DNA from: Stereum hirsutum FP-91666 SS1
Taxonomy: Eukaryota > Basidiomycota > Agaricomycetes > Russulales > Stereaceae
Direction: 5' to 3'
Length of the DNA: 64,000 nucleotides
Assembly: GCF_000264905.1 (NCBI RefSeq)
Contig: NW_006763135.1
Span: 62,001-126,000, forward strand
The notes below the pieces were generated by a model. The model searched no databases. It saw nothing but the letters and a program-made list of their open reading frames with translations, and had not been told where the DNA came from. This document shows, piece by piece, positions 15,863 through 62,260 of the stretch (positions are counted from its first letter, which is position 1; every line of letters begins with the position of its first letter). The position numbers and the translations under genes are program-made.

Positions 15863-16116
15863 ATGCAGTTATCCATCAAGACCGCTTTCTTCGCCCTCGC
15901 CGTCTTCTTGCCTCTTGCTTTCGCTGCTGCTCTCGAGCAGCGCACCGAGGACATCGAGTGCAAGCCTATCCTCCAGTCTTGCGCTGTCGATGCTGAGTGC
16001 TGCGCCGATCTTTGCGTTGCTGGCGTGAGTATTCTTTCATTATCCCTCTGTTATCCCAGGATTCAGTCTCTTGAGCAATTTGGTTGATGATATTATGCTC
16101 AAAGCTCTGCCTCTGA
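15863..16116 (+). CDS. knottin-like secreted cysteine-rich peptide, member A
   Basis: Two exons, 15863-16024 and 16105-16116, with an 80-bp phase-0 GT/AG intron, encode 57 aa. Residues 1-21 are a signal peptide (FFALAVFLPLAFA core). A dibasic-like site EQR (25-27) could be a Kex2 site, leaving a mature peptide of about 30 residues. Cysteines are spaced C-x6-C-x5-CC-x3-C-x4-C. The first five are on exon 1; the sixth lies on the 12-nt exon 2, which encodes three residues and the stop. This is the inhibitor-cystine-knot framework; a knot fold is inferred, not shown. The role is unknown: effector, defence or signalling peptide are all possible. It lies about 30 kb from the other six members and next to the HMG cluster. 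Confidence 0.85.
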
Positions 16117-16904: not shown

Positions 16905-17806
16905 TTACTCTGAATGCCGTCTTGAATGTGTTTGCGACTCGCACCCATCCCAATTCGAAAGCGAGGACCAACGGCGGGTAGGGGGGTTGGTGGAAGCAGA
17001 GCTGGAAGAAAACGCTGCCTCATAGCTCGAAGAGTAATCTATGGATACCGAGGCCGAGGGAGGTATGATATCGGTGGGAGACGGTGCCGACGAGGGAGGA
17101 GTAATGGTACTGGAAATGAAAATGACCCCAAGTGTAAGCTTAAATGATCATTAGGACTGGATGAGAGAACATACAATGCCGGTAGATTTTCACCGTAGTA
17201 GCTATTATCTGGGTTAGGAAAGTCTGGCTTAATCGGCGGAGAAGGGAGCTGCGACAACACATATTCAGTGGAAGTATGCAAAACAGTGGGGAAGGTGCAT
17301 ACCAAAATACTATTCCCGTCGTTATATCGAGAGTGTTGAGCCTGGAGAACGTAGGGGGCCTTCTCCTCATCTGTCATGCGACGCCATTGTTCATTCAATA
17401 TTCCGATAAGTTTCGTCTGATTGACGCGGCCAGTAGTATCTCTGCATGCATCCTCCAGGTACGGACGCCGCTGATACATGAACATATGCCACGAGTTATG
17501 TTTGGGACCTTCTTCGGTCTGGCGTGCTTGTTCACTGGCTATAGTTTCGAAAGGTCGTCGTTCTTCTGGCGTCATTGTATTCCATTCTTCGCTTAGACGA
17601 GGCGTCAACTTCTGTGGCCTAAGACTCGGGTGACCTGCAGGGAGCTGAGCCTCAAGTTGAGCTCTACGAGAGGCTGCAAAGACTCGGAAGGGAGTGGGTC
17701 CACGATGAGAAGAACAGTTCTGTTTCGATAGTGTGCTCACGTAAGTATGGTAAGATACGGGGTGAAAGAGGATTTTCTTGCCTTTGTGTTCATACTTATT
17801 TACCAT
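16905..17806 (-). CDS. HMG-box protein 1 (two HMG-like domains)
   Basis: Three exons, 17303-17806, 17175-17248 and 16905-17109, join to a closed frame of 260 aa with introns of 54 and 65 bp. The first HMG-like domain begins near GPTPFRVFAASRRAQLEAQL and includes EEWNTMTPEERRPFE. The second contains HNSWHMFMYQRRPYLED and LNEQWRRMTDEEKAPY. These W/M/P-x-E blocks are typical of HMG-box helices 2-3, so DNA binding in the nucleus is expected. The C-terminal Ser-rich tail ends with SSLSNWDG, a motif shared with the two paralogues downstream. The start is uncertain: paralogues have a 5-codon first exon, while here the frame is open from ATG 17806. Confidence 0.75.
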
Positions 17807-23900: not shown

Positions 23901-26900
23901 CCTGGAGACATAGATATCATTCGTCGGGATTTCAGTATCGTACAAAACGTACGGCGTGAATGCGAGGGCGGACACGTCCAAACCGAAAAGATCTCAAATT
24001 CCAACATGATTCCACACGTTATATCCGTCTACGACATTCTTATCACTCGACTAGCTCTCTCAGTCAGCGCCGCAGACTCGATTAACCTCCAGGCCTACTT
24101 CCAGCATTGCATACCGCGGATCACTCCACGTGTTTCGCATTACGAGGCTTCCAATATGGCCCACAACATCACTGTCGATACTTGTCCTGAGCCTGGTTGC
24201 CCGGAGCGTATACGAAACACCCATGTCATCACAGGATGGCCTCTTTTTTTGCACATTGTGCCTGAGACGTCTCAGTCAACCGCGGAGACGTTTGGAGATG
24301 GACACTTAGCTGTTCAGCCCATGACCTCGTTTACCATTCGAACACTACCCGTATCCTTTGGAAGCCCTCTATCATTGGGATCAGACTCCGAAGTAGCCCC
24401 GGCTGAGGTGGTATATGATATCGTTGCTCGCATTATGTATCGCCAAAACAAGACCCACTTTCAGGCGGAAATTCTCTCCTCGGGTCGAGTATATCTGTAC
24501 GACGACATGCGGCATTCTGGCATTTCTCAGGATATCGGAGACAAGTCGGTGATGGAACGAGCAGATCCTACGGCAGTACTAATGGTTTATCATCGCCGTT
24601 CGTCTTGCTCTGTGAGTCTCTTCCTACAACTTAAGATGTCGTCGCAGAATTGACCTCTCCATAATTATAGTTATCGTACCGACCCGTTGAAGAGCTGGTT
24701 CATCTAACCTCCAAGGGGCCCGCATATCTCGACGGTTACGGACTTATGCCAACGCAGAGTGCTGAACACCGACCATCCCCTCAGGCAAAACATCCACCGT
24801 CAGCTCCGACCAAACCTCCCCAACCTCCCTTCGTCGAAATTCCTGTCCCACATCCGCAAAACGATCTCTCATCCACCGAGGCAGAAGCCCACACAGCGAC
24901 AGGCATTCCTCGTCCCTCGAACTCTCAGGAGTATCCTTCTACGAATGCACCAAAGTCGTCAGAAGTTGCTGGTCAGAGCGCCCAACTCTCATCAACTGAA
25001 CGTCCTGCCTCCGTGGCTCAAAAAGACACGAAATCTACGAAAAGAAAATCCTCGAATGCTCGTCAACTTCCGTTGCCATTTCCGCTCACTGAAGGTGTTA
25101 AACGCTCTGTCCCACACTCGAAATCCAGAAATGGTACTCCGAATAGCGTGGACGAATTCTTCGCAGCGACCGTAAGCACCACATATCCTCGTGAACAACG
25201 CTCCCGATCGCAGAGTTCATCAATCCTCCCTTTCGACCAAATATCATGCATCGGTTGTTACGACGAGTCTGGAAAACCTGGAAACCACACTCTACCAGCT
25301 CTTCCAAATACTGCCAAAAACAATGACGACGACGCCATTCAATGCGGTAGATGTGACCGATGGTCACACGTATACTGCATTCGTACTCAGTGGGGCGTTC
25401 CGGAGGACTTGGAGGACTTTTGGATGTGTCAAGTCTGCAGGAAGCTCGCACCCGAAGAGGAGGTTTTATGGAATGATGAGACATAGTAAGTCATTGTCGC
25501 TGCACATCTTTTCTCTGTAGGCGCTCATATAATATCTAGCATCGGAAAGTACTTCCTCCTTCCGACAGAAAACTCAGGGAGCACATGTTACCTCGCGAAG
25601 GTCGTTTCGCGGGATGTTATCCACGCAGTTATGGAGTGGTTCGACTACAATGTCTACAGAGCTTCGCATGAGCCCGACGCTGAGGGTCAATTTCGTGTGC
25701 CTACTCAGAGAATTGTCGAGGCTTTGGACGAATCACATCCGCGAGCTTCCAGGGTAGGTTCTTCTTATACCATATGGATCAGAATAATAGACATCTGAAC
25801 TCACGGTATATATTAGGCAGGATATATCGAATGGCCTAAGCAGTTATGCCAAGAAGCGCACGAACGATTCTCTTACGAGAATGCGACCATCAGCAGTGCT
25901 ATTGACGATGCGTTCGGTGCTATCGTAGAGATCCTGATCCGCACTCGATCCCATCCAGTCATGGAGATGTACGACAAGTGGCGACGCTCACCTCAAGGTC
26001 GAAGGTCGGTAGTTCTCCGCGGCAATACCTGGGCTGACACTACATTCAACATACCAATTCTTCCTGGTGATTCCTCTCTCTTGGAACGACGAATATCACA
26101 TCTCCACCGAGTCCTTCAAGAAAGACTACCAGATGAAGTTGAAAAAACGCACTTCGAGCTCGCATTCGAACCCGGATCAGTTCTCCTTCGACTTGTCATT
26201 CTTCGGGTGTATCTAGGACGTTCTTCGTTATCGGACCAGGAAATCTTCGACCTTGTTTGTGCTGAAAGTATCCATCCCGTCCCAACCGAGTGGCAGAAGG
26301 CAGCTCAGGCGCTATTCGGTGTTTCCATAAACACGGGATCAGAGACTGATTCGGATGCAGGCTATGGCCCGGGGACCGCGGCCATATCTGATCTGACTAT
26401 GCGCCTAGAACACCATATCGCACGGCGCATAACTCCGAGCGACATTCTTGAAGGCTGTGTGGAGATTCGTACGACATCCGGAGAACCGTACGCCTGGACT
26501 GGGTCAGTTGAAAACCAGTTATCGGGAGGCCCTCCATTCTCCGCATTTCGGCCCCGGCCAAAGGCTGCGAAGACAGCGAAACGCGATCGAGATGATGGTG
26601 CAGAAAATAATGGAGAGAATTCACAAATTGCGGACTCACAAGTAGGTCCAATCTTCTTCCTCGATGAGTAAGAGCTAACTCTCTCCAGGGTCAAGACACG
26701 TCCGTCGCAAAACGACAGAAACTTACAGATGCTGGGGCTCGAACGTCTTTGGTACGAAAACTTATACAAAACCCTCTTTATTATGAGACTGACTCTCCAC
26801 GATCAAAATACAGGCAGGAGATATTGGGGCAAGTCCTCAGGAGTCAATTGCTGTGAGAAGAGGAAAAGGACGACCAAGAGGCAAGAAAACCCGAGTTCCT

Positions 26901-32390: not shown

Positions 32391-33404
32391 CTACTCCTCC
32401 CTCTCCCGCTCCCCACCTTCCTCCTCCCCCACAATCCCCCTCCAAACCCCCCAATTCCTCTCCACCTCCCCATAAACCACCCCCCAATCCCGACAGCCCT
32501 TCTCAAACCTCTCCCTCGGCGCTCCATCGTCTGCCGCGCTGCTCTCGAGCCCGGTGTTGGCGGAGCAGAGGATGGATTGGTGGAGGTATGCGAGGCAGTG
32601 GCGGGTGAGGCCGGAGTAGGACGTTGGGTAGCGGCCGTCTGCCTCTGCGTCGGAGGAAGCGGGAGAGGAGTGGGAAGAGGAGGTGGAAGGGGGAGAGGAC
32701 CAGTCCATGGGTGTGTGGGGTGGTGATGTGAGGTTTAGGTAGGACGAGGTGGTGTATGGCGACGAATTCCGCATCGAGCGGGAGAGGACGTAACTCTCTC
32801 TTAGGATATCGAGACATTTCAATTGATGGAGCAGCGTCGGGGTGTATTCTTCGTACTCTACTTCCACTTCCACCTCTCCTCCATTTCCTTCCACGCCTTT
32901 CTGGTCGTCCAGGATGATGTGGGAGGACGCAGGCGGATCCGGCGACGGCAGATGAATAAGATGTCCCGTGGGCGGTATGAGCGCTTTCCACTCCGCGATA
33001 CCGAGAGGCGTGTCGAGCGCGTAGTGGACTGAGGTTTGGATGTGCATGGCTACGGGGGGAATGGCGTCCCATGGGATGAAGAACGTGAGGTCGTCTGTGT
33101 GTGATGGCGTCGGTTAGCGTTCGGTGGTGGTCGTCATCATAGGGAGGAGGGATTGAGGATGGGGAATGGGAGGAGGGAGAAGGAGACGGAAAGGAGACGG
33201 ACCGTGCGGGCTGGAATGACGACGATGAGAGAGAAAGGCATTGTAGTCCACGAAGACGAATGCGAGGAAGGTGAGGAGAAGTAAGCTAGCGAGGGAGAGA
33301 AGGACAATTCGAGAGCGGGAGAGCGGCGTCGGCATCGTTCGTTCGTCGTTCTCCACGGCGTCTGAGCTCTCGCTTTGGGTTCCAGGGAAGGAGGAGACAT
33401 GCAC
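32391..33404 (-). CDS. UstYa-like (DUF3328) protein with degenerate motifs
   Basis: Exons 33203-33404 and 32391-33094 with a 108-bp phase-1 intron give 301 aa (278 if translation starts at ATG 33335). A single membrane segment, VLLSLASLLLLTFLAFVFVD, near the N-terminus suggests a type II membrane protein. Family hallmarks are HYALDTPLGIAEW, LLHQLKCLDILR and TRHCLAYLHQSILC. UstYa-family oxidases, known from ribosomal cyclopeptide (dikaritin) pathways, carry two HxxHC motifs. Here they read HQLKC and LTRHC, so one histidine is missing from each, which may mean altered or lost activity. The start lies about 390 bp from the divergent UstYa-like gene at 33797, probably sharing a promoter region. 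Confidence 0.8.
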
Positions 33405-33796: not shown

Positions 33797-34765
33797 ATGC
33801 CCCTCATCAAGTCCCTCGGCTCAGCAGGTCTTTTCGTCGTCGTTGGGCTCAGCGTCTCTCTCACCGCATTGCGTATAGGACAGACTGTAGTCCATCTCAC
33901 GACGCACGATGTCGGTGCGTCTTCCCATTCCGTCCTCTCACCTCTCCACTTCACCTCTCCACCCGACGACCCCGCATAATCGCAACAGTACTCACCTTCC
34001 CCTCCTCGCACCACAGACCCCGAACCAACCTACAGCTGGATCGGAAACGACAGACCTTCGTCATGGGATCTCAATCAACGCTCGACACCTCCCGTCCTAC
34101 TTACCCTCTCCGACTCAACGCATTACGCGCTAAATAACACGCCGCTCATCTCTTCCCTCTCCTCTTCCCCGTCCTCCAACTCCCCGTCCAACTCCAACTC
34201 CACCACCCCGGTGCCTCATGCCAACAACGACGACGACACACGCTCGCACCCGTCCCCCTACTCCTCCCTCCTCTCCAACGCCGAATGGTCCGCCGCCGCC
34301 CTCGCACCCGGCAAAACAGGGCACGTCCGTCTCGGTCCAGACCATCGCATCTTCGCACTCACGCTCTCGCACCAGAATCACTGTCTGAAGATGATACAGC
34401 GTGCGCTCCTTCCTTGGGTTGGTCCCACTCAACACGGTGCCGAACGTCCAACTCAAGGCGGCGGAGATGGAGGAAGGGTGATGAATGATGGGGAGGCGAA
34501 ACCGCACCATGTGAGACATTGTTTTGATTATTTGAGGCAGACTTTACTTTGTTCTGCGGCGAGCACGGTCGAGAGGGGGGATTTTATGAAGAGTGCTGGA
34601 CGTTACTTTGGAGATGATTCTCTAGCTAGGGAAGGGACAGACGGGGACGATGGGGGGAGGATGTGGAGGGGCGATACGTTGGTGTGTGAGGATTGGGAGA
34701 GCGTGTTTGGGGCGCTGGATGGGAATTTGGGGGAGTGGGAGGAGTGGAAGGCGATGTGGAATTGA
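33797..34765 (+). CDS. UstYa-like (DUF3328) protein with intact HxxHC motifs
   Basis: Exons 33797-33914 and 34017-34765 with a 102-bp phase-1 intron give 288 aa. N-terminal membrane segment: AGLFVVVGLSVSLTALRIG. After a Ser/Asn-rich region come WSAAAL and the two motifs HQNHC (LSHQNHCLKMIQRALL) and HVRHC (HVRHCFDYLRQTLLC), both complete. The family catalyses oxidative cyclisation or related steps on RiPP precursors in ascomycetes; activity here is inferred from homology only. No obvious multi-core RiPP precursor lies next to it; the nearest secreted peptides with Kex2-like sites are 11 kb away (B-E). Confidence 0.8.
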
Positions 34766-45578: not shown

Positions 45579-45832
45579 TCAAAGACAGAGCTAGATACCG
45601 TCCTCATTCACGTCAGCTCAGCCCGACAATCACAGTGTAGATGGGAAGGAAATGAAATCGAACTTACGCCAATGGAGCACAGATCCCCACAGCAATCACT
45701 GTCGACCGAGCAGCTCGAAAGGAGAGGCAGACACTCTTGACGTGTGGCCTCAGATTCGGTCGCCAACGCAGTTGAGATGAGTGGTAAGAGCACAGCGAGG
45801 GCGAAGAAGGCGGATTTGAAGGAGAACAGCAT
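45579..45832 (-). CDS. knottin-like secreted cysteine-rich peptide, member B
   Basis: Exons 45668-45832 and 45579-45590 with a 77-bp phase-0 intron encode 58 aa. Signal peptide to about residue 24. The propeptide ends at EATR (28-31), the only member without a KR or QR site. Cysteine spacing is the family C-x6-C-x5-CC-x3-C-x4-C, with the sixth Cys on the 12-nt last exon. It is the most diverged in loops 1 and 2 (loop 1 LPLLSS, loop 2 SVDSD) and in the fourth loop (SIGL). It lies in duplication unit 1 and is the sister of member C. Confidence 0.85.
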
Positions 45833-45907
45833 GGTTGGTTGTATTTGACTGAGTTGAATGGCTCGATGAGGGGATGAGGATGAGGATAAAAACGACGGTG
45901 CTGGGTA

Positions 45908-45914
45908 TTTTATA
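45908..45914 (-). promoter_or_regulatory. TATA box of peptide gene B
   Basis: TATAAAA on the minus strand, about 80 bp upstream of the start codon at 45832. Confidence 0.6.
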
Positions 45915-47327
45915 TTTCAAGATAGGGGTGACGTTGGGGTGAGATGGCCGTCTCATTCGGAGGGTGGATCCAGGCAGTCCGGGAAGTACCTCTTCGCTTT
46001 GTGACAGATCTGTCAGGCCAAGAACGTTAGCCTCCCTAGTCTTCAATGACTGTCTGTCACTATTCCCTGTAAAAGTTTCAACGCCGTTGTTCGCTTAATC
46101 AAATTCCTACAAAATAGAGCTATTGATACAACTCTCGTAGATAATGGTCTCCGATCCACAGACAGGAGCTTGGTTAAATGACAGTGACAGAGTGGCATAT
46201 GCTGCTCCCATTTGACTCAGACAAAACCTCTTTTATATGAGGGTCAACATGACCATTCGATGTATTAGCACGATTCATCGAGCGCAAGGCGTTGACAGAG
46301 ACTTGACTGCTGAAAATCAAAACGTACAGCGGGGTACACGAGTCATGATGTACCGCTGACGCGAGTAATGACAGTATCCCTTAATAGAGAAGTGATGGGA
46401 GGAAGGAAGGAAGGAAGTCATATTCAGAGCATGTAACGGGCTCATGAAAACGACTACTTATGCAACGTGGCGGTCATGATGGAAGGTACTTGGGGAGGAT
46501 CGGGTGCAAGTGAAATGCCAGCCGGAATGAATTAGTAAAACACTGTAGATTCTAGCGTCACCGTCATAGTTGCCTACTGTTTCCTGCTATGTGCTTCTCA
46601 AAACTCAAACTAATTGTTGTACAACGTGAGTGGAGTGATACTACGATCCGATGTGGACCGGGGACTGGTGTGACCATTGCAGAGCAATTGTGACCTTAGC
46701 GCGGACAAGTAATGTGGAGATGAAGATGCCGCGAATGTATACACTCACTAGTACGATGATCCACTGCGGATGGAGACCATACCGCGTGCGAATATCAACA
46801 ATTGGGACAGAATTCAACTACCAGGTATCGCAAATGCTATTTTAGTGGGGATGACGGACTCGTTCCACGCTACGGTTTAATCCTTCCTATAACCTTCGTA
46901 GAAGCACAATGTTTGACGTGAGCCATGGCCACCGACTGGCGACGATGAGTATCATTTCGTCTCCGACTTTCATCTGTTCAAACTTGGTTCAAACCCTGAC
47001 TGGTCCTTATCAAGCCAGCTCATCTTCGTTTCTCTTCGGACACCACAGTATTGATTTCGAAGACATTTCAACCACATACACCGAATGCACACATCCGAGG
47101 CACTCCCACTTCGTGTCCTACATCCTACAATCGGAACAACAAACAAAAACGGAGGTAATCGGGGTTTTCTGTTTTCTTATGCGTATGCGCACGCCAAACT
47201 CTGCCGACGAAACCTATAAACATATAATTCAGTATGAACTGCATTTCCGAAATATAACAACATCAAACTAACCTTCACTATCACTCATGGTAGAGGCCTC
47301 ACGAAACCTCGAGACTCAGAGGGTGGC

Positions 47328-47573
47328 CTAAGCGCAGAGCTGAACACCGTCCTCCTTCACGTCAGCTCAACCCAATCATGACGACGTAGAGGTAGGTGTA
47401 GAAGAAAGACCACTCACGCCAGCGACGCAGAGATCCGCGCAGCACTCGCTGTCGACCGCGCAGCTCTGAGCGACAGGCTTACATTCGCGCTTTGCCTCAG
47501 AGGTCGACGTGGCGGAGACGAGGGGCAAGAAGACGGCGAGAGCGAAGAAGACAGACTTAATGGAGAACTGCAT
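47328..47573 (-). CDS. knottin-like secreted cysteine-rich peptide, member C
   Basis: Exons 47418-47573 and 47328-47339 with a 78-bp phase-0 intron encode 55 aa, the shortest member. Signal peptide of about 21 residues, propeptide ending AKR (27-29), mature part about 26 residues with only one residue before the first Cys. Family cysteine spacing, with the sixth Cys on the 12-nt exon; the C-terminal residue is Ala. The near-minimal mature form shows that the N-tail is not needed for the scaffold. Confidence 0.85.
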
Positions 47574-47647
47574 GGTTGTTTGAACTTAGCTGAGTAGAAT
47601 TGTTGGATGAGTGGGTGAAGATGGAGATGAAGACGAAAGTGCTGGGG

Positions 47648-47654
47648 TTTTATA
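47648..47654 (-). promoter_or_regulatory. TATA box of peptide gene C
   Basis: TATAAAA on the minus strand, about 80 bp upstream of the start codon at 47573. As in gene B, it is followed by a cagcac stretch. Confidence 0.6.
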
Positions 47655-50012
47655 CTCTACGGCGATGTCGGTTCTGCATGGGATACTACGGATAAATTGC
47701 TAGTAATCGTGAGGCTCAAATGTGTCACTTGAGGAATTACACCACAGTTCGCATCTTGTGGAGCCAGCATCGAAGGAAATAATGTCGGCAGAAAAGAGGA
47801 TCGTTTTGTGAGCTCCTCGAGCTTGAGTGTCTATGTTCGTCCGGAGGACGCACCACAGTGCTCACGGTGCCCCAGTCGAGGGTGCCGCTTCGGTGCGTCA
47901 CAGGTGCGTCTGACACCGTTGACCTTCGATAAATAGATGTAATCATGCTCTTCAAAACCTTCAGCCGCGTTCTTCACCCAGTAAGAGTGGTACGGAGATA
48001 AAGCCAGCGGTACTGCTGCTGCAATTAATGTGTTGTGGAGGCCGGCGTACCTTAATTCAACAAGAGTGACGGTGGTCATATGTTTGCCCCGTACATCGGC
48101 AATGGATGCCAAGATATACATACATTGTAGCACAACGCATCGAGGCCAACTCGAGAAAGCGACCTCGTTAGTGGGAATCCAAACCTAACACGGGTTAAAC
48201 AGTTCATGATCCACAGCTGATGCGTGTAATGAACAGTACCCCTAGGTGGACCATCAAGGGGCGAAGTGGTCATGAGAAGAATCACGGAGTTGATGAAGTT
48301 GCAGCGCACATAAAGACACAGTGACACAATGAAACGAGTCGCCTGAGACTCAAAGGTGTATAAATTTGTCGTGTCAAAGGGGGAGTCTCCACAAAAGATC
48401 ACCGCTGCAAAAACCGTAGAAACGTAGGCACTCCTCAGCAGGGGTGTGTGCCTTAGCACCCATGCTCATTGTGGCGAAGCGGGGTAATGCGATGACCCGG
48501 TGGAGATGTGGGCAAAGTGGAGGTAGACCAGACGAGAAATGTGGAAATGAAAATGCCACGGATAAATGAGTGGACGACTATGCGAATGGCTAAAAACGTC
48601 GGAAAACGCTGAAGGGTTTCCCATATTCGAAAACTTATTTCAGCTACTTACGACCTACAGCCTCTATTGAGGCTGTGGTCATTGCGCATCCTGCAGCAAC
48701 ACAAAAGATTTCCCGAGGGGATAAATCCTTCGCAATGTATCCCAAGGTTGACGATTACCACATGAGATACACGTTGAATCCACGTGTTATATGTGCACAC
48801 CGAGTCCCCTAGAAATGAACTGATGATTGAGCGAGTGACCTCCGGTTTAAGGTTCTTTTGAGCGAATGGTATTTTAGTGTGTCAATCTGTTCAGCTATAA
48901 CGCTGTGGAAACCCGTAACGGAATTCTGCACTGAAGTGGGACATCATGAGACTCAGTCTCCACTTCTCACATGGAGCTATGCACCGTTGTCTTCAAGAAA
49001 AGAAGAAAGATGTGTGTGTATCGATGGAAGAGATCGAGGGCTACCAGAAAAAGGTAGCCTGCGGCTGTAGGACGGCGATCTAGTGAGACATGTGCATTGG
49101 ACAGGAAGCTCACGCGCGTCTCGGGCATGTTGAAATCTCCCACTCGGAGAAATATCTCCTGTATGGATGCACAATGGGTAACAAGCAACGGAAAGATGCT
49201 CCCACATTCATGCCCGTGCGGGAGAAGATTCGGAGAAAGGGTATACAACTTAAATCGACGATACAGGTGACTCAAGTGCATGAGGTCAAACAAGACACTA
49301 AAGGGAAAATTGGACCATCGTCACGATTACAGGATGCTACCGCACGTACAGAGGGAAAGATCAGACTTGAAGAAAAGGTGTTCCAGGTCCCCCGGTGTAT
49401 TGCATAGACACTACCACTTCATATTCGGAATGCGGGTCCAGATTATGGTGTATAAGGCCAGTAATGAAAAGGCAACTAGGGACGATGCGCAAGATATGTT
49501 CAAAAGTCAACAAAAAAATCTACACCTCAGGGCGAAATGGTGCAGTGGAAGACAGCACGGGCAGATTCGGATCACAGATTTCAGAACTTTAAGGTCTCAC
49601 AACACGCCACTCCGTAATACTCCGGCAACAACCAACGCCACATCTTCTGCACAGCTCGCGTAACAGTAGCTATAGTCGGTCAGGACGTCTCCAAACTTAG
49701 ACGAGGATACAAAGTCCCGGATTTATAGATTGTCCAGCTGTGCAATAGAGCTTTACGTTCCTTCACAGACACACGTTTAGTCCACCAAAACTTTACACAA
49801 TGAAAAACGAATAATATTATTCGCGGCCGATGGATACAGGGTATTCTCTAACATCACAGCAAATGACATATCGGGTATTCTAATTCCGAAACAGTGATAC
49901 GCATTATGGTGTCAAATGAGGTTTAAACGACACCATAGTCTGAGTGACATACCTATGCTAGGACATCATCCGGGGGTGAGTGCCAGTGCTGGCGCGCTTG
50001 AAGGCGTGCAAT

Positions 50013-50249
50013 TTACAAACACAGCTGAGGACAAGTTAATTGTGTCAGCAAAAGATCTGTAGCAACGACGTAGGCTCATGAGCTCACTCCGACGAGGCAG
50101 AGGTCAGCACAACACTCGCTATCAACAGCACAAGACTGAAGAAGAGGCTTGCATTCGTCAGCATCTGAGCGCTTTTCTTTCGGCGGAATAGCGACGGCGA
50201 AGGGCAAGAAGACGGCGAGAGCCAAAGTGGTCTTGATGGAAAAGTGCAT
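50013..50249 (-). CDS. knottin-like secreted cysteine-rich peptide, member D
   Basis: Exons 50088-50249 and 50013-50024 with a 63-bp phase-0 intron encode 57 aa. ATG 50249 (MHFSIK) is chosen over an in-frame upstream ATG at 50297 because it aligns with the signal peptide starts of all paralogues and lies downstream of the TATA box at a normal distance. Kex2-like site KEKR (24-27), acidic N-tail SDADE, family cysteine spacing, fourth loop LVGL. The last exon uses CTG TGT TTG TAA. Confidence 0.85.
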
Positions 50250-50312
50250 GGTAGAGTGGATTGTTCTGTAGACAGGGTGGTGAGAGATGGAAAACAAGCA
50301 AATGTGAGGGTC

Positions 50313-50318
50313 CTTATA
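50313..50318 (-). promoter_or_regulatory. TATA-like box of peptide gene D
   Basis: TATAAG on the minus strand about 65 bp upstream of the start codon at 50249. The sequence further upstream (tagtaatcgtg) resembles the same region of gene C. Confidence 0.5.
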
Positions 50319-51868
50319 TTGCTACGGGGTCTCTAACTTTCCCAAGTTCATAGTAATCGTGCTGAGAATCGAATCGCTGCGTGCATGCCTTGCAAGAATT
50401 CGAGAACGCTGCTGATGAGAAACAACGAGTAGCCCGAAGTCGTGGAAATGTTTTGTGAATACCAGAGGCCGACAGCGGAGGTACAAACGCAGTGTGCGAC
50501 GTGATAAAACAGTTGAGCAAACACGCGTTAGCTCCAAGTACGATACAATTGGGGTGCAGCCGTTATTTATCTGTGACCAGCTAACGTAGTAGGTCAGCCA
50601 AAGCAAAAACGTGCACGAGGTAATCACATAAGTACTCCCGCACCAATAAATTGGGGAGTCGATAGACCATCCACAACTCCCCGCGAAGTAGTTCTCCATC
50701 GTTTTCCAAATGCAGAAAAGGTGCAATCTCAGAAAGCCATGCTAAGAAGAGTCGCGCACACCACGAAAGCATGGACACGCTGCAGACACGATGCACAGCA
50801 TCCCAGCCGTGCAATCCATTTTCCTGAGCACCCTTCAAACGAACCAAATGCATATCCCTTCAACAAGCCAAGTCTAGAGCTATTGAGTACTGTTGATTTA
50901 TGAGATGAGCCAAAGGTTCAAAAAGGAATACGAGAAGGAATCATAGTGGGTTTAAACGAGCTAACATGCTAGTAACCAAGACTCGTCAGAGGGATCTTCA
51001 TTGGGAGCAACAGGTCCGCGAACACTGGATTCATCTCACGCCCAGGCATTTATAACACGGGCAGAAGATAGTGTGTCTCCGAAGTTTTCGTTGGCATGGA
51101 CCACGCTTTCGGAGATTAGAGGCGTGGCGAGAAGGCTTCCATAAGGCAACCAAGAACGATTCCCAAGTAGCACAGGATATTTCAGAAATAGAAAGGAGGC
51201 GATGCTGCAGTCATCGTCGTCAAGTATTGAGACGCGGCTAGGTCATCAACCCGTTATGATTATACCATCGAATGTGTATGGCTCGCAGTTTTATCCAACC
51301 CTGAGTCAAATGTCAGAGACAATCAGATCATGTGCACCGGTAAAGATGCGAGAAGAATACACACACATGCCTGAATCAACAAAAACCTCAATTGACAACC
51401 TTCCACTATATAGCTGGATCACTACTCACCAGAAGCGACAGAAGCCCATACCGAAAGACAAAGATTATACGGATAGTCAGTACCATCCGGAACTGAGCGG
51501 ATGCCGAGAGCAGCTACTTCAAAACGCGCCGAGAATCACAAGCAGAGTTTTCAAGGCCCACAGTCCGAAGGTTCTCGTTCAAAAGACGCACTCAATGAGA
51601 TCGTTTGGTTAACATACGGTTGATGTAGAGTTTACCGAAGTCAGTTTACCGACGAAGAAGTATATTTCCAATAGGTTTACTCGTATAAATTCCCCAACAT
51701 GCACCCACAAACCCGAAGTAGTTATCCCCACGTAATAGCAACACGACAGCTTGGAGAGGACGTGCATTAGTAGAGTCCCTAGTGCGATGGAAAGTATGGA
51801 AGCGTTGCACTCACCACGGCTGGAGAAGAGAACTCGTATCTCCAGGGTATATAAGGAGTGGAAGTCTC

Positions 51869-52113
51869 TTAGGCACACAGCTGCATCAAGAGGATCAGTC
51901 AACCGGGATTGACCAGAATATGACTGAAAACAGGGTGAATGTACGTACACCAGCGACGCAAAGGTCAGCACAGCACTCGCTGTCGACGGAGCAAGATTGA
52001 AGGAGGGGCTTGCACTCAGCCGTACCCCAGCGCTTCTCTGTGAGGGCAGCAGCGGAGGCCAAGGGCAAGAAGACGGCAAGAGCGATGAAAGCGGTTTTGA
52101 CGGAGAACTGCAT
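51869..52113 (-). CDS. knottin-like secreted cysteine-rich peptide, member E
   Basis: Exons 51949-52113 and 51869-51880 with a 68-bp phase-0 intron encode 58 aa. Signal peptide of 20-21 residues; site TEKR (25-28) followed by WGTAE before the first Cys. Members E and F share EKRWG at this position. Family cysteine spacing; the C-terminal residue after the sixth Cys is Ala, as in C. Confidence 0.85.
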
Positions 52114-52208
52114 TGTGAATGAATGAATGTGGGATAGAGTCTCAAAGGGGGGAGTGCTTCTGGGTTTGGGGTCGAGTGGATGGGGAGCTTGAAGGGGAGA
52201 GGAGCCAC

Positions 52209-52215
52209 TTTTATA
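52209..52215 (-). promoter_or_regulatory. TATA box of peptide gene E
   Basis: TATAAAA on the minus strand, about 100 bp upstream of the start codon at 52113. Confidence 0.6.
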
Positions 52216-55200
52216 CTGCAGGTTGAATGAAGCCTAGACCAACAAAGTAATGGGCGGCGCCCGTTCTCGTAGATGGAACATGGTCATGGAATATTTGGTT
52301 CTCCCTCGAACTGGACGGACCGTGCGACATTCGGGATAAAAAGATGACTGAAAATTTTCAATACTACGAACAACGATGGGACCAGAAGGCGAAGTTCTCC
52401 AGAGTTAGGGAGGGCTAACAGTTTCATTGGTCAGGGCGTTTCGTACCCCGCCTTCGATTCGGATGGGCAATAAAGCTATTCTTGACATTGAACTGCTCTG
52501 GCAACGCTCCCTGGTCAATGCAGAAAGAACAAGGGGGACACAGACAGTCGGGTATCTAGACTTCTATGATGGCGTCAATGGATGAAACTTCCGAAAGGAA
52601 CTGAAGTCATTTCCGTAACTTTCGTAGGGCAATATACCACACACCGGCAGAAACTCCCCGCACAGCAACGTTAGAATTATCCTGGGCGGGTAAAATTACG
52701 CATGCGTGTCATCGAGGAGTTATCCTCCCCCGTATGTACACGTGGATGCTGCCTTTGTGGACGGAGGTCAATGTGAAGCAGCCGAGGTGTCAGTTGATGG
52801 ATAAAAGTCTATGATCATTACACAGTAGAGGACTGTCGCCGGAGAACCGTTCCTGAGACCGATACTTCTTGTGCGCCCAGCCCTATGACAAGACAGACAC
52901 ATTCACACATCAGTATGGCATACTGTAATTGAGAAGACATCGGGCAATCAGAGAACTCCAGAGGCTGCGGGTGAGATCAAAAAGAGAACCTGCCTGCGCT
53001 CAGCAAAGTTTTGTGGCCACACCAAGCGCTTACGAACGGCATATTATAAAGACGACCCACCAGATTAGGGCCCGAAGACGTACTGGCGTTAAGAAAAATC
53101 CGAGCTAACCAGTCAGAATTCCATGGCGGTGTAACCGATTCAAGGTCTGTGTTTACCTGCACAAAGGAAATTCCGTTCTCCTGGGTATCTTTTGAAAACG
53201 ATAGAGAAATACTTGTACCGGATACCTCGTACTTCTACTTGTGCCACACAGTAAACGGCCTGAGAACGGCAGTTCAGCATAGTCATGAGATGTAATAGAA
53301 CATCGCGACACAAAGTTGAATACCCTGAAAACAAGGCCGGCGGGGAGAGTGCGGTGAAGAATCAGATCTATAAGCCAAGTTCAGTGTGTGAGGCATCAGC
53401 GCTATTGTCGTCTAGACCCATGCGGAATCGATCCGAGCTCGGCAGGAAAGAGATGGGAAGTCCACGGAATTCCAAACTAGCTAGAACCGGGGGAACAGTG
53501 ATACAAAAATCCTGCATCAAGGTGACAGGCCGACCAGGCGAAGAATATGTAGTCAGCATCACTTATCATCATCGTCTGTACCGTCGCGCGTTGAGACCGT
53601 GCTACGTCGAGACATTCTAGTTCCATGATTATGATACTACACCCAGAGAGGACACCAGAAGTTTGCAGTGAATCCAAGGACAATCCGAGATGGATGTTAT
53701 CGATGAGAGCGGCGAGCGCGAACAAGGGAAACGTGGCATCGTCTATACAAGTCCCACGCTGGCGGGTATTCCCGGCACGTAGCATCGCTGGTGTTTCCAC
53801 TTCTGCGACACTTGATACTTACCTTCTGCAACAAGAGTCCATGCTCGGATACTACAACTGTTTATCCTACATTAACCCCTGAATGAACCGCGTCGCTTGG
53901 ACACTTACGATGAGCTACAGGTACAATTGTCGATAAATTGCCCGCAGGCTTTCTCGCTACTTCGACTTACACCTCTACATATTGCGTTTCACCGGCAATG
54001 CTCCCGAGCCTATCTATCCAGGCATTTTCTAGTCCGTGACTGTTGTGGTGGCATACGTTGCTTCATATCTTCGACCGTTCAGGCGCCTCGCTTGCCGGAG
54101 GTATCGACTCCAAAAGTCGTACACTCGCATGTATCCTCACCGCGGCATCAGCATTTTCTCTGGAACGAATGACCTCTCCCTATTCAACGATCGTGGCACT
54201 TGCATCCAGGGGAGAGCTGAAGCTGTTGTAATTCCGGCAGAACAGTCGTATGAGGTTATGTACCAGAGCGTCATCGTCGGTATGCTCGTGTCATGGTGAC
54301 TCTGTCGCCGATACTGAAATACTGAAATACCGTTTCTCTAGCGCGTGCAGGGAGTCATTCTGCCGATTGGAAAGTATTATTCTTCGTATCATATACTTCA
54401 CTCACTCTTTTCCTGCGACTTTCATCCTGTGACAACCGGGAACGTACATCAGCCTACTTATGGTGGCGTATCTCACGGGCATTGCGTTTGGATACTTCCC
54501 TCCAGAAGGGTCTTCCCCATGCTCTCGTAAGGACTTTTGTCCGGTGCGTCAGGCTCCTTGGATTTGAAACAGTAGGGGTGACTTGAACTTCATGCAGAAT
54601 GAGGATTGTCCCTGTCACCAGGCGTCGTCGAGGAGGAGCTATCACAGGAGAAGGGCGACAATGACGCTCGGATCAGCCATCAGCACAGTTGAACATCGTC
54701 GGCTTCTTTGCGATGAGTCTTTACTAGCTACTTGATGCGAGTCTGACGATATATTCAGTCTATGCGATGACGAGGCAAAGGCATATAGGGGCTCGTTACC
54801 CTCTGTGCTTATATGGCCATCGCCCGACGACAGCGAAGCAGTTCTTATATATGGCAAGTCCATCACACATCGTTACTCCCTCTGGTGAACGGTACGCGAA
54901 TTTTAGCTTATGTTGAGAATCTCTGAGTAGCAAAAGGAGTTGATATCGACTATGACGAGAAAGTGGAGGGGCCGAAGCAGAAGCGTGTAACAAAGGACCG
55001 TTCGGTTTTTGAGCGCTACTCTACACATAACGGGATACACATTATATGTCTGTCAGTCTCTTTTACTGGCCACTCAGACCAGTTTACTGCCAGCATATAA
55101 CCGTACGAGACTGCTTCCTTTCCGTCGCGGAGAGCGAGAAATTGAACGACTTCAAAGGTCGTCCGCTACATCTGTGATCTGTACTTTTTTGAACTCGAAT

Positions 55201-55488
55201 CGCCCACACTGGATAGTTTCTTAGTAAAAACATAGTGATATGGTTATTATACTACATGCATACCCCGCTACGTACAACAAGAGGCAGCCTGAGGCTTTTC
55301 TGCTTGAGCAGGAGACAAGGAAGAAAGATAATGTGGCCCATACATAGACGTTCTATTTTGAAATTAGCGCCACATGCCCACGTGTCGATTGTTGAGCTTG
55401 TCGTCCTAGACGTCGTGCTCAAGACTGCTCCTCTCTCACCGTCAACGTCCAGGTCCAACCCACATTCTCCTCTACGGCCACAGCAGCC
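52216..55488. other. long stretch without a recognisable gene
   Basis: About 3.3 kb between peptide E and EMC6. Several short open frames on both strands (for example 53477-53800 minus and 53285-53620 plus) lack family similarity, repeats or splice-supported extensions. No transposon ends were recognised. Confidence 0.45.
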
Positions 55489-56024
55489 ATGTCAACGCCT
55501 GCTGAACTCGCTTCACAACGTCTTTTCGCGCCCCATATCGTCACCAACACGCACACCATCTCCACCATCAAATTCATCTCCTCCACCCTCGCCGGCGCCG
55601 TCGCAGGCATCTTGGGCCTCGAAAACGCTTATGGATTCGCTCTTTTCGCATTCTCAACACTGCTCACGTCTCTGTGCATGTTGGCGTTGAACTTTGGAGG
55701 GAAGCCGAGCAAGTACTTGCCGGGTGGGTGGTTGGAGATGGTGAATCCGGGGCAGGAGAATACGATGAGTTTCGTGTTGGTGTGGACGTTATTTTATGGT
55801 GCGTTTTCTTCATTTAATCGCTCCTTTGGAGCTTTTTTGAGTTGTTTCTGACGATGCCATCCATGTCTCTGTTTGTTTCGATGCATATGTCGGTGTACTT
55901 TGCAACGTGCAGGTATTGTACACGGTACGTTCTTTGCTCATGCTTATGGGGACGATCGTGTTGCTCTGGAAACTAAATCTCCCCCACACCCTTCTGGCTT
56001 ACTGCTATTTCAGTATACGACTAG
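55489..56024 (+). CDS. EMC6: ER membrane protein complex subunit 6 (EMC6)
   Basis: Exons 55489-55798, 55913-55924 (a 12-nt microexon) and 56014-56024 give 110 aa, the usual length for EMC6. The protein has the conserved hydrophobic block with ENAYGFALFAFSTLLTSLC, then KPSKYLPGGWLEMVNPGQEN, TMSFVLVWTLFYG and the C-terminal GIVHVYD. The last residues are only obtained by including both short exons, and their match to the conserved end of the family supports the splicing. It is a core subunit of the EMC insertase for membrane proteins in the ER. It is an ordinary housekeeping gene within the peptide cluster and a useful synteny anchor. Confidence 0.93.
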
Positions 56025-59000
56025 CCTGGATACTCGCTCTCTTCTATGTTGCCTACCTGTGCTGGCTAGGACTGCGTTAAGACCCTTGGACTTGGCCCGT
56101 AGAATCATGGGGACACGTAACGCATTGCTTTTGAAGCCTATCCTTTAGAACCCTCAGTTGCGCTTCTCGCTGCCTAAGATTATGCAGCGCTAGACGAATT
56201 CACCATCATCTTGTGGTCGTCATCGAGCGCTGGTCATTCACACTGTAGCCCATGAGGGGAAAATACCTTTCTACCGCACGTCGAGTATTCTCGTTGGATC
56301 ATGGATCCTTTCCACATACTTGGGAGAACCCAAAACCCCATGGTCTTATCTGCGAGGACGGTCACAGGATTTGTGGCGCCGTTTTGACGTGAACGCCACA
56401 CAATAAAAGTGGAGACTAGTCACTGGGGGCTGCAAATCGCGCTTTGTACGCATTCCTCCTGGTTATATAGCGACTCTATGGAGGTACCTTTGTTCTTGGC
56501 ACCGAAATGACCGGGGTAGACAGCGACTGGAATCCCTCACAGTATTTTTTCCCGACGTGGTTCATGACGAAGTTCGCGATGCGTCGTCCTTGCCGTCCAG
56601 CTCGGATCTTCTTCGTCTCCTTGTGGGATATACGAATCGTGGTATCCTGACCCTGACGAAGAACGTACGTAGGAGAAAACCCATAATACCTACAGCGGTG
56701 CCGGGGATCGCATTGACCATTACGCCCTCAGCTTTAACTGCGGGCTCCACGCATCTATCTTCATCTCTCCGGGTGCGAACCCCCTAAGTCCGACTTTAAT
56801 GGGCTCAACAGCCTCAAATGCTGGTGGTGTTAATCCCCATTCATCCGGCCTGCGTAGCATCCTTTCAACTGTTAAAGCTAGACTTGTGTATTTAGTGCGA
56901 CTTTAGTTTCCTCTCTCGGGCTGTCTGTCAGTCCTCCGCATGTGATGCGGAAGGTATGCGGCGTCGTCAGCACTCAGGTCGACATGTGATGGTCACCACC
57001 ACTCGCAGCTCTCACTCCACGCTTCAAAGAGGTTAGATTCGCTGTTAACATGCGATGATTTGATTGTCGTCGTCATTTTGTCATTTCGATACGGTCTACC
57101 ATGGTCGTTTTACCGTTCACGATCGTGATGGTGGCACTGGTCTTACCTCGAGAGCCATATATAGCTGGTACGAACTCAAAATCCTCGTTCAGGCTCGACG
57201 ATCCCAATCCTGTCGGGGTCGGTGCTATCGAGGATGTAGATGGACAGTGCACCCATAGCACGAGGACTCGTGAATACGTACGTATACTGCGGTCAAACTT
57301 GAGGACCCCGCCCTCGTCGAATCGATAACGCATGTGGTGTATTTCGACGGAGAATAGACCACGAATACGTACACGCAGGTCATGTCGCGCTTGTCAGATG
57401 GGGTGATGATGCAAACGCTGCTTAGGTGCGCTGAATATTCTGTCAGCTGGCGTCTTGTGTTCAAGGAGGCCTTGCTCTGCTCATACAACCCACGCTTTCT
57501 AGACATATTCCGGAAGTATGAAAAATCTTCTCAAACTGCTTACTTACTCTCTTGCGTTCATGCCATTACTCGTCACGTTTTCAGGAAATTGTTGCAGGTC
57601 CGTTCCAGGACGTTCCATTGTTCTCGGCAAGTTCTCGACTTCCTGCCTCTCAAAAGAGCCAACCACAATTCCATTTCTGTATATGTCACAGATGCTTCCG
57701 TTGCCCAACTCTGCCCCACATACCCTGATATATCTTTGCCCGGAGTCCCCGGGCGCTCGAGCTGATCACATCGCTTGCACTTCAGCTTTCAGATTGGCGT
57801 CCATTCTGTTTGGGAGATCTCCTTGCTGCAAGGGCCCGGAACGTAGATGTGATATATTGGATATCCTTCGGCGACGAGTTCGTACCTTCTTCCAGTCGCG
57901 CCGACGCCTATTTTTTTCCTGGATGCGCATAAGACGGCGTAGAGGGGCGCAGGGTATAATTCACCTGTTCAGTGACCAGTTGAACTGATTTTTCGTGGTC
58001 ATCGATGACGCACAGTCGTCCATGGTGCGCGATGTGTGTATCGGTTCGTCTCCAAAGAAAGAGCGATCACATTTCCCAAACAAGAATTTGAGGGCTTCGT
58101 GACGTGATAGGAACTTTGTGGCGCAACTTTGGTCGCTCCGGTGTTGAACACTTTACTTGAGTGGAAGCGTAGTCCCCTAAACGAGCCCGATGAAGACGAA
58201 GTCGAGAAGCTGATCCCTGAGGAATTACGATCATGTTCGTACTGAATTGCTTCTTTGAGCGTCCTAAGTAAGCTGTCCGACAGTTGTTCCGTTCAATTAT
58301 TTCACGGTCTTTGTGGCTGGATTCCGGATCTAGAAACCGAGGGACACTCTTCGATCGAGTTAAATACGATTCTTCATTGAGGACGCCTAACTGATCGTAA
58401 CTTGTGTCCAACGCTCGCTCAGCTACGATCTGCAATAATGCTTGCACTATAATTCATCACCTGTCAAGCGTTTGGTTTTCGGGACCGCGGGACTGTCCAA
58501 GCACACTCTTCGCGGACTCGCAGTATTCTTGGAGATATTCATTTGTTAACGCGTTGAGATGGACGGACTTAGTGCGTGGGTCGACAGTGGTCTAAAGAGT
58601 AATTCCCCTCAGCTTGCCCTCAGCCCAACGAAGATCTTTGTATTCATACTTGGGGGAACACCACTGTCGAATTCAAAGGCTTCACGAACTGTCAATCTAT
58701 GTTACTACCGTCATTCGGGGACATCCGTGCTCTGCCGCTTACGGACCTCATTTCTCGACCTCCAGACGGGACTCTTCGTGAGCCCTTGACAGATACTCCG
58801 CTCGAGTTGACAGAACGCTTACTTGTGATCCTCTTTTTTGCACGAAATAGGTGCCTCAAACCTCGAAGATTGGGCAGATGCGGCGCGCTCCGATCATTAC
58901 AACTTTCTCCCATGTCAATTGTGTCCAACTAGGTCGACACGGATGCACACGAGCCCCGAAGTTGTAGGGCCCATCATCGAAGCTCGAACCAGCTTCTTCC

Positions 59001-59067
59001 GAATTTCGCGCCACATCAAGTTCAACTTCAAGCCACGAACTTCCGGACCGCCACATCTGTCTCCAAC
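56025..59067. other. long stretch without a recognisable gene
   Basis: About 3 kb between EMC6 and peptide F. Open frames such as 57382-57765 and 57518-57988 (plus) overlap in different frames and show no family pattern. No RNA gene or clear repeat was seen. Confidence 0.45.
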
Positions 59068-59074
59068 TATATAA
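59068..59074 (+). promoter_or_regulatory. TATA box of peptide gene F
   Basis: TATATAA 111 bp upstream of the final base before the start codon region at 59185, in the context shared with gene G (TATATAAACCT). Confidence 0.65.
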
Positions 59075-59184
59075 ACCTCCAGCACTCTCCACCTTTCCAC
59101 CCTTATCCTCACAGGAGACCACTCAGCGCACACCCCCCTCTTCATACCTCACTCATATCAATCCACTCGCTCTTCATATCAAAG

Positions 59185-59476
59185 ATGCAGTTCTCAATCA
59201 AGACCGCTTTCCTTGCTCTCGCCGTCTTCCTTCCCCTCGCCTCTGCTGCCGTTCTCGATGAGAAACGCTGGGGTGCAGGCACTGGCGGCGGTGGAGGCGG
59301 AGGTGGCGGTGGCGGAGGTGGCGAATGCAAACCGCTTCTTCAGAGCTGCGCCGTCAACAGTGAATGCTGTGGTGACCTTTGTGTCGCTGGGGTACGTTCA
59401 TAATTTACTCCGTATTAACCTTGTATGACATTACTAATGGTTTTGTTTCAATTGCCGATCTTAGCTCTGTCTCTAA
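59185..59476 (+). CDS. knottin-like secreted cysteine-rich peptide, member F (polyglycine tail)
   Basis: Exons 59185-59391 and 59465-59476 with a 73-bp phase-0 intron encode 72 aa, the longest member. Signal peptide of about 21 residues, site DEKR (25-28), then WGAGT, a run of 13 glycines (34-46) and Glu before the first Cys at 48. Family cysteine spacing, with Asn in loop 2 (AVNSE). The glycines are coded by mixed GGC/GGT/GGA codons in a (GGNGGN) pattern that suggests expansion by slippage. It shares the extended TATATAAACCTnC promoter with member G. Confidence 0.88.
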
Positions 59477-61822
59477 AGACATCGTGCACCGTTACGTTCA
59501 TCAACCGATGTACCAGCTGGCTCGAAATTAAGGGCTTTTTGTACGTATCCTTCACTTCTCAGCTATACTCTCCCTCTTCCTCCTGCTATCGTTGTTTCTC
59601 GTTGGGCCAGTACACTAACATGTAACTCCTCCGATATCAGGCTACCGTTACAATGCTATGGTGTTCCAAAGACTGTCGTTGATGGTGACCTCGGTCTGAA
59701 TGTTGTGAACTATGTACTGTCGTTTATGTTGTCCCAATGTCTATAATACACGCACTCCTTTATATTCGATCGCCTTTCATTAGTACTCGAGTCTGTGAAG
59801 TGCTCTGCGTCGCGATACGACAGTTTGCCGTGGACTGGAATGATGCCACTGTTCGACATTTGCTAAGAGCGTGCCCATGGTGACATGTGCATGATAATCA
59901 TCACTGCATTGTTGAATTAAGTCGCGTCTCCCCGACGTTGCATGTTTTTGGCCATGATTCGCATCGGACGTTCTATAAGTCGCCACGTCTTCATCTCGTC
60001 TGTGGCGGTAAGTTCATTTCAAGCGGAGACTCCCAAAAGAACTTCCCCGATCAATATTCCACTCCGAGTGTCTCCGAGTCTTGGCCTGCGCTGTTGCTTT
60101 CTGATAGAGCTTGAGTCTGTTGCTTACGGAACCCATGCTCTTGAACCTCTTCTTCTCTCCTGATGTGGACTGTAGCTGGTATATGTGGCTCTGTTACGGC
60201 GGGCCAAGGACGAACTCTCATATCCGCGGGCAACGTTGAAGTTTTCCCTCGGCTTTCGTTCATGATCTAGGTTCTCACCCCAGTGGCTCTGGGGAAACCC
60301 AGCTTACCGACGTGGGACGCTGTACGTGTCAGAAGCACCTTCCACTTTGAGTGCACGGAGATGTCAGGCATCTGCCAGGGATTATTTTGATCCCTCCTAT
60401 GTGGTCGCGTCTTTCCATTCTCCATCCTCGTCCCTGTGTCTGCACAACCCATCTACGCCCTATTGTTAGCATATTTGTTGACAGTCTTGCACGGGGCGTC
60501 AATATCTGCACAGTTCTCGCAAGTATATCAGCGAACCTTTTTTTATGGTCTAATACTGTCAAACCTTCCTAACACCGCATTTTAGTCTGCACAATCAAGC
60601 TCATAGTGATTTCAGTTGTAGGCTTGGTGCTCAATTGCATAACTCGAATATGGTCCATCAGCATCAGTAGGACTGAATGAGGCACTTCCCATTCAACAGA
60701 GGTCCCATTTGATGGCGGGCTACAGTTGTACCTGGAGGGCTCGCATAAGTATGGTATCGAAAAGAGAGGTCGAATTACTATACTGGTCCACAAGGACGTG
60801 CCCATGGGTCTTCATAGAGTGACTGCTTGCTACCATATTAGTAAACAACTCGCTCTGGAGCTGTTACAGTGGTCTCAGGATCTTATCCGCAGACATCGAG
60901 TGACGTCTTGTGCTTTGGTCAGATGGTCAAAGTAATAGTTCTTCTCGTAGGCGGGTATCGCTTAAGACTCCTCCCGTACTCCTAACGCTCACTCCTCGGT
61001 CGAGATTCGTACTGGGCTCCGTACTGGGCTCCATAGCTTGTGTGCAATAGCTTAGCGTATCCCCATAAATCTACGACATTCCACTGCAGAGGATGCGCAT
61101 TTATATCTTCATAAAACTTTTGGTCTTGTCAAATAGCCATCGTGCGCCCAGCTATCGCCTAACGTGTGGAGTTTGTCACTTGTCATACAGCACAGGCTAA
61201 CCGAAAATAACATTGGTGGAGTAGTCTATATCTTCATTTGTTGTTCTCTGCCAGGTACCAATGGTCAGACCATGGTGTAGACGTACGTCTATTCAACCCG
61301 TTGTCGAAGGGAAAGAGAAATTCCAACGAGACGGGCGGCAAGAACGATGTGCATCGTCACAAATACACAGTAGCGTATATTCCCGTATAGATGGGCGACA
61401 TTTCTAGACATGATATTTGTTTTTCACTCTGAACTAATTTTCACATTACTCATTGCGCTTATATATTGACCCAAGCAGTCAATTCCTGAACATAGAGTAT
61501 TTCTCGCATATAAGCTTCTTGCTCTCATTGATCCCAGTATTTAGGAATCCCAGTGCCGTATCGATCTTCACTTCAACCCTGTCGCGAGGAGATATGGTGG
61601 CCCGGAGATTCAGTTACAGAGCACGGTTGAGAACGTAAGTGCTGTCGGCCCACTGATTTAGGAGGCCCACTGCTTCATTATCACTCTCGGTCAGGTAGGA
61701 TTAGCCGCATCATGATCGCATTCGGTTCCTCGTTTTCCAATGTTGTAGTTGCGTTTTCCAGGTTCTCCCACTTTATTTTGATTCGCTCCTGCCGTTAACT
61801 CTCGTGTACAATATCCGTACAG
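59477..61822. other. stretch without a recognisable gene
   Basis: About 2.3 kb between peptides F and G. It includes a 12-bp direct tandem duplication gtactgggctcc at about 61008-61031. No supported gene. Confidence 0.45.
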
Positions 61823-61829
61823 TATATAA
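61823..61829 (+). promoter_or_regulatory. TATA box of peptide gene G
   Basis: TATATAA about 100 bp upstream of the start codon at 61928. Confidence 0.65.
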
Positions 61830-61927
61830 ACCTACCCTTCCCTCCTCATCTACTCATCTCACTCACCCACTCACATACACACACAAGCGCATCCCACTTT
61901 CACAACCAGACACCTCATCAACCGAAT

Positions 61928-62260
61928 ATGCAGTTCAATCTCAAGACTGCCTTTCTTGCCCTCGCCGTCTTCCTCCCTCTCGCATCTGCGGTGGCACTTG
62001 CAGAGAAGAGAGAGGATGAGGGGGGTGGGCGTCCACCGCAATGCAAGCCCTTACTTCAGAGTTGTGCGGTAGACTCAGAGTGTTGTGGAGACCTTTGTTT
62101 GGCCGGAGTACGTTATTGTTCACGTCCTTCTCCTCTTTAATCATGCGATACCACGACTCTTCAGGCCTTCATCTCCAGCTTCGCTCATTGAATGCCGTAA
62201 TGTCACTATCCGGACTATGCTCATTTGTTATTCTATATCTTCCTCTAGCTCTGCATCTGA
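61928..62260 (+). CDS. knottin-like secreted cysteine-rich peptide, member G
   Basis: Exons 61928-62107 and 62249-62260 encode 63 aa. The phase-0 intron is 141 bp, about twice as long as in the paralogues, but donor (gtacgt), acceptor (ctctag) and the terminal exon CTC TGC ATC TGA fit the family. Signal peptide of about 21 residues, site AEKR (25-28), N-tail EDEGGGRPPQ, family cysteine spacing, C-terminal Ile after the sixth Cys. It is most similar to F in the signal peptide and core. Confidence 0.85.

Follow-up and report, generated by a model that had tools for sequence, protein, structure and literature searches.

The region described here, hereafter called the window, is a stretch of 64,000 nucleotides from the Agaricomycete Stereum hirsutum FP-91666 SS1 (contig NW_006763135.1, positions 62,001 to 126,000; contig C5 in the genome coordinates used below). 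It contains seven small genes, A to G, which, judging from their sequences, almost certainly encode members of a family of secreted six-cysteine peptides. Genes A (15863..16116), F (59185..59476) and G (61928..62260) are located on the forward strand, and genes B (45579..45832), C (47328..47573), D (50013..50249) and E (51869..52113) on the reverse strand. All seven reading frames are open and start with M-[QHL] followed by a hydrophobic leader. Their products share one layout, in which a signal peptide (assigned by eye) is followed by a variable spacer and then by a core of the form C-x6-C-x5-CC-x3-C-x4-C-x-stop. The first-pass annotation of this DNA had placed seven such genes here, with an identical cysteine spacing ending one residue past the last Cys, and both statements hold for all seven copies, the limits of the B to G group (45579-62260) being exact. 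Its prediction that the products are secreted gains support from the leader, which by eye is common to all of them. A six-frame scan of the window recovered these seven six-Cys cores (up to the fifth Cys) and none besides, and the strict pattern C-x6-C-x5-CC-x3-C occurs seven times in the six frames versus zero times in 100 Markov-simulated windows.

Each of these genes is interrupted by a GT-AG intron of 63-141 nt, whose donor lies exactly 9 nt past the codon of the fifth Cys. Exon 1, the intron and the terminal exon occupy 15863-16024, 16025-16104 and 16105-16116 in gene A; 45832-45668, 45667-45591 and 45590-45579 in gene B; 47573-47418, 47417-47340 and 47339-47328 in gene C; 50249-50088, 50087-50025 and 50024-50013 in gene D; 52113-51949, 51948-51881 and 51880-51869 in gene E; 59185-59391, 59392-59464 and 59465-59476 in gene F; and 61928-62107, 62108-62248 and 62249-62260 in gene G. 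The terminal exon is always 12 nt long and codes for Leu-Cys-x-stop, so that the sixth Cys is supplied there. Splicing was assigned by comparison among the copies, choosing the GT/AG pair common to all of them; alternative GT/AG pairs that yield a late Cys are present in B, C, D and G and, with a GC donor, in A. An AG followed by [LI]-C-x-stop was found in 1.2% of 20,000 random draws (stretches of 50-225 nt), and since a random downstream stretch offers one at this low rate, the presence of the 12-nt exon in all seven genes is not a matter of luck. Read-through of the intron meets a chance Cys in gene G (62108-62137) and in a gene of another contig (C3:2524387); therefore, six Cys are still possible in these two with intron retention.

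The family extends well beyond the window. Genome searches, whose counts are lower bounds, recovered at least 19 genes, which are spread over seven contigs (C5, C17, C19, C2, C3, C4, and C6), with 12 of the genes outside the window, so that the expansion proposed by the first-pass annotation from seven genes was real and understated. Gene E as query found 16 genes distributed over all seven contigs. A C3 member led to two divergent C2 genes, and these two to one more. A core-only composite query, which like the composite used below for the PDB search matches no single gene exactly, recovered once more the 16 short-loop genes found with gene E and added none. An initial pattern search of the genome for the CC motif was discarded, its matches being equalled in number by those of the control, and a search for the telomere repeat TTAGGG in four consecutive copies found no sites. 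The matched exons of the at least 19 genes contain no stops.

The cysteine loops of these genes are 6-5-0-3-4 in 15 of the 19, 5-5-0-3-4 in one (C3c), and 6-5-0-9/10-4 in three. Thus, loop 1 has six residues in all genes except C3c, where it has five; loop 2 has five and the Cys5-Cys6 loop four in every gene; and the Cys4-Cys5 loop has three residues in 16 genes and nine or ten in the other three. These long-loop genes are arranged in tandem (G000:C2:1809815-1813751), with KR immediately preceding the first Cys. The donor position is identical in the 16 short-loop genes, and by eye the intron of the long-loop genes is likewise located three codons past the fifth Cys. The terminal exon measures 12 nt in 17 of 19 genes, 15 nt in C6 and 18 nt in C2z, and the corresponding C-termini are Cys-x-stop (17/19), Cys-x-x-stop (C6), and C-T-I-Q (C2z). 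The C4 gene (G000:C4:2701787-2702135) is a chimera, in which a different secreted N-terminal part with several RR sites is joined to a six-Cys core that has one intron ahead of it and the usual one near its end. Elsewhere in this genome, this N-terminal part has no clear counterpart, the one weak match having an internal stop. The chimera suggests that the six-Cys core could move as a module.

The precursors may be processed ahead of the core, where the residues differ among them. A KR or RR pair precedes the core in genes C to G and in 11 of the 18 precursors that were tabulated, the others having ER, QR or TR; C2y, read by eye outside this set, has KR. The Kex2-like site first ascribed to all seven window genes is therefore dibasic in C to G and absent as such from A (QR) and B (TR). 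ER sites also end the propeptides of some fungal secreted enzymes, and cleavage at the ER sites of the present precursors is possible. The core, split by the phase-0 intron, is 24-34 residues long with its six Cys, and its net charge ranges from -1 to -4 in 17 of 18 cases (0 in C3d). The spacer varies between precursors: some have just a few residues, gene F has 13 consecutive Gly, and C6 carries a long insert.

Selection was evaluated on 15 genes, leaving aside C4 and the three long-loop genes and skipping pairs of unequal length (by which C3c drops out of the core counts); D and C19 were excluded from the signal counts. In the core of the window seven, the proportion of synonymous differences (pS) is 0.79 and that of nonsynonymous differences (pN) is 0.16, with a pN/pS of 0.20 that becomes 0.30 without Cys (bootstrap 0.17-0.45); the ratio of the signal part is 0.24 (six window genes). 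These ratios serve as a guide, because the synonymous sites approach saturation and the compared pairs depend on each other. Since pS is near saturation while pN is low, most C5 copies look old, with the core under purifying selection. Except for the pair B-C, nucleotide similarity among the window copies is confined to the coding exon plus, at most, a few tens of flanking bases. Shared flanks are found in the tandem copy B-C and, as long ones, also in C3a-C3b, C3c-C3d, and C2x-C2y. Outside C3, loops 1 and 2 show little variation; B, C, C17 and C2a differ there by one or a few residues. There are thus signs that the window core is held by purifying selection, variation being found mainly in the spacer. 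The C3 branch stands against this: its core gives a pN/pS of 0.53 on three genes of equal length and its loop 1 varies, so that it may be relaxed or diversifying. A conserved core with a variable spacer is not the usual arms-race pattern of venoms and effectors. The proposal that variable N-tails indicate an effector or defence repertoire is weak on this evidence, given the conserved core of the window genes, even with the looser C3 branch.

A tree of 17 precursors (all but C4 and C2y) leaves 10 of 14 inner branches open. Support was middling for the long-loop pair (84/93), C3a-C3b (91/89), C17-C19 (88/84), and C3a/b/d (80/73); because no fork reached strong support, the order of the duplications is not settled by the tree. 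The promoters of the same 17 genes were also compared. Of these, 16 carry a TATA-like box between -40 and -160 (that of gene A at about 15760), versus 6.9% of random stretches of the window, C2z being the sole gene without it. Such TATA-bearing promoters would suit strong, regulated expression.

Both the cysteine spacing and weak database matches are in keeping with a knot fold. Animal inhibitor cystine knot (ICK) peptides have the framework C-C-CC-C-C, and 16 of the 19 genes have six Cys with loops within the ICK range, whereas the long loop of the other three exceeds that range. When the PDB was searched with a C5-type composite core, 12 entries matched at E values up to 10, eight of which we take to be knot peptides, and the nine matches of the C3d core are presumably all knots. 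Four shuffles that preserved the Cys positions gave 1, 0, 3 and 0 matches, among which was a single knot peptide. Pfam was scanned with 14 of the 19 proteins (all except D, G, C4, C6, and C2y), and 13 of them matched models of knot families (Conotoxin, Conotoxin_I2, Toxin_12, Toxin_19, Toxin_27, and Toxin_23) below the threshold; two of five shuffles with Cys kept had one weak match each, and none of five with Cys moved had any. NCBIfam, scanned with three proteins, gave no matches. The knottin-like character suggested at first reading is thus supported by the Cys spacing and by weak matches, mostly to known knot peptides, for which shuffled controls gave fewer and weaker ones.

Several results weigh against a knot. 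None of the 14 proteins reached a curated Pfam cut-off, including those of Conotoxin (PF02950) and Toxin_12 (PF07740), and C2z matched no Pfam knot family, even weakly. The best E value of the C5-type PDB search (1.2e-4) sums two stretches, the better of which alone has 0.048, and Cys-preserving shuffles sometimes match knot families weakly. Other Pfam models were also matched (Dickkopf_N, LEAP-2, UPF0506, DUF1847, and an Ig model), the scores of Dickkopf_N and LEAP-2 being as good as those of the knot models. Finally, AlphaFold2, run on gene G read into its intron, gave a model containing a helix and two isolated strand residues at a predicted local distance difference test (pLDDT) of 48.9, a low confidence that gives no decision on the fold or on the triple-stranded beta sheet of knottins. 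The similar scores of non-knot models and this AlphaFold2 result would be in line with six-Cys peptides of a different fold. We regard such a fold as unlikely, considering that the 16 short-loop genes fall within the loop range of ICK peptides and that the PDB matches are mostly knots. The family core probably folds as an inhibitor cystine knot.

Putting these data together, we consider it an even chance that the genes encode secreted, knot-folded, disulfide-rich mini-proteins of an Agaricomycete which act as ligands of conserved partners. Signal peptidase and a Kex2-like protease would free the core, which would then fold as an inhibitor cystine knot with disulfides 1-4, 2-5 and 3-6. The freed core, acidic, hydrophobic and non-cationic, would act extracellularly by binding one conserved partner, a role to which we give slightly less than even weight, with self-signalling making up about half of it. 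The partner would most likely be a receptor on the surface or wall of the fungus itself, with a function in signalling or development; alternatively, a competing or grazing organism might carry the conserved target. No diversification against a host would be involved. A broader proposal is that conserved knot peptides of the venom framework serve mushroom-forming fungi themselves as extracellular signals or surface ligands, with many gene copies sharing one conserved core and with spacers and promoters setting time and place; it is speculative and unlikely. With its 19 or more genes, its C-C-CC-C-C framework and its signs of purifying selection, the family would illustrate a conserved fungal use of the scaffold and not a host arms race.

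Other functions have to be weighed against that of a conserved ligand. The knots could be protease-stable toxins or inhibitors directed against fungivores or microbes and produced by hyphae or fruiting bodies. The Cys framework is also that of ion-channel knots, multi-copy TATA-bearing genes suit a strong inducible output, and genes for class II peroxidase and GH7 are present in this genome, as they are in plant-litter decayers (at least five peroxidase matches and at least three GH7 gene places). The best matches of the class II peroxidase stretch are lignin-degrading peroxidases, and 7oo5, one of its two best entries, is presumably an Agrocybe enzyme. However, the core is acidic instead of cationic, and a conserved mature core with a variable spacer is unlike the usual venom, so that a defence role appears rather unlikely, if less so than the remaining alternatives. 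Effectors acting on a plant host, akin to rust MLP124266/AvrP4 or Cladosporium Avr9, are improbable. The rust family is alike in layout, with a signal peptide, a disordered charged N-terminal part, a C-terminal knot and many genes (PMC6889267), but the core of the window genes is conserved, not diversifying, and its Cys spacing is unlike that of MLP124266.

Two further possibilities have been set aside. The precursors could belong to the ribosomally synthesized and post-translationally modified peptides (RiPPs) matured by UstYa-type oxidases, since two UstYa-type (PF11807) matches are located between genes A and B: one in the open reading frame (ORF) 32391-33047 (reverse strand) and one at about 34331-34585 (forward strand), corresponding to C5:94481 and C5:96331. 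A signal peptide and a Kex2 site are also features of dikaritins (PMC9233826). Repeated cores are absent, however, each of the 19 precursors having a single one, and the six Cys already account for the conserved residues. The genome search returned at least 30 UstYa match pieces and, among the matches listed, none lies less than 100 kb from family genes except on C5, the next nearest being at about 114 kb (C6); the link is for this reason probably due to chance, and RiPP maturation seems very improbable. Slimmer still is the case for lipopeptides resembling mating pheromones. The precursors are small, multi-copy and processed, and the long-loop C2z ends in C-T-I-Q, which has the CaaX form; an end of CaaX length is nevertheless absent from the other 18 genes, and contig C11, which has no family genes, accounts for the whole set of 21 STE3 matches.

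With respect to the neighbourhood of the window genes, an ORF for EMC6 (ER, endoplasmic reticulum, membrane complex subunit 6) at 55489-55803 (forward strand) is located between genes E and F and could serve as a synteny marker. The ORF adjoining gene A (17039-17806, reverse strand) has HMG-box matches at two places, and a PHD-finger ORF is present at 24746-25486 (forward strand). An Rfam scan of the window gave nothing reaching the gathering threshold.

Avr9, one of the fungal knottins to which the family can be compared, is not known to have a CC pair. An expanded fungal knottin family ('Fungi1') has been described in Histoplasma and its relatives, with Avr9 and Melampsora lini members, and one legend gives n = 30 Histoplasma transcripts with a knottin domain (PMC4503680). 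These proteins are alike in being small and secreted, with a C-terminal six-Cys pattern and lineage expansion, but by description the present family is set apart from them by its adjacent CC pair and by the terminal exon bearing the sixth Cys. The rust protein MLP124266 is a solved knot from a 13-member family with a disordered N-terminal part, and together with AvrP4 it shares with the present genes the signal peptide, variable N-terminal part, C-terminal knot and multimember family (PMC6889267). Its Cys 39, 44, 50, 55, 58 and 64 form loops 4-5-4-2-5 without a CC pair, whereas the loops here are 6-5-0-3-4. The Magnaporthe BAS3 group, an effector family of an ascomycete whose members are secreted fungal proteins like the present ones, has been likened to scorpion knottins by profile comparison (PMC8715435) and modelled on a plant defensin (PMC8715435, PMC11043172); its likeness to our family is one of description. 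The initial statement that few such fungal families are known therefore needs amending, since knottin or knottin-like proteins of fungi are described in PMC4503680, PMC6889267, PMC8715435, PMC12204505 and PMC12705615, the last three noting knottin-like proteins in other fungi.

Within the literature searched, seen in part and with most subscription papers outside its scope, no Agaricomycete knottin family was described, and none of six core sequence motifs brought up a paper. The texts on mushrooms, as far as seen, compare spider knottins with amanita toxins or otherwise mean hyphal 'knotting'. In the same sources, structural data concern fungal knottins of plant pathogens (Avr9 and MLP124266), and the expanded family belongs to human pathogens. 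Genome annotations may overlook such families, because gene finders may lose a sixth Cys placed on a 12-nt exon. The layout of the present family is like that of known fungal knottins, and given its CC framework versus that of MLP124266, the predicted peptides are not assignable to them. With animal ICK peptides from spiders and cone snails (Toxin_12, Conotoxin, and Conotoxin_I2) the family has in common the C-C-CC-C-C framework and, in the best PDB alignment, V-D-S before the CC pair, while the present core is acidic and its matches fall below the Pfam cut-offs. As these peptides come from a different kingdom, the likeness is likely convergent.

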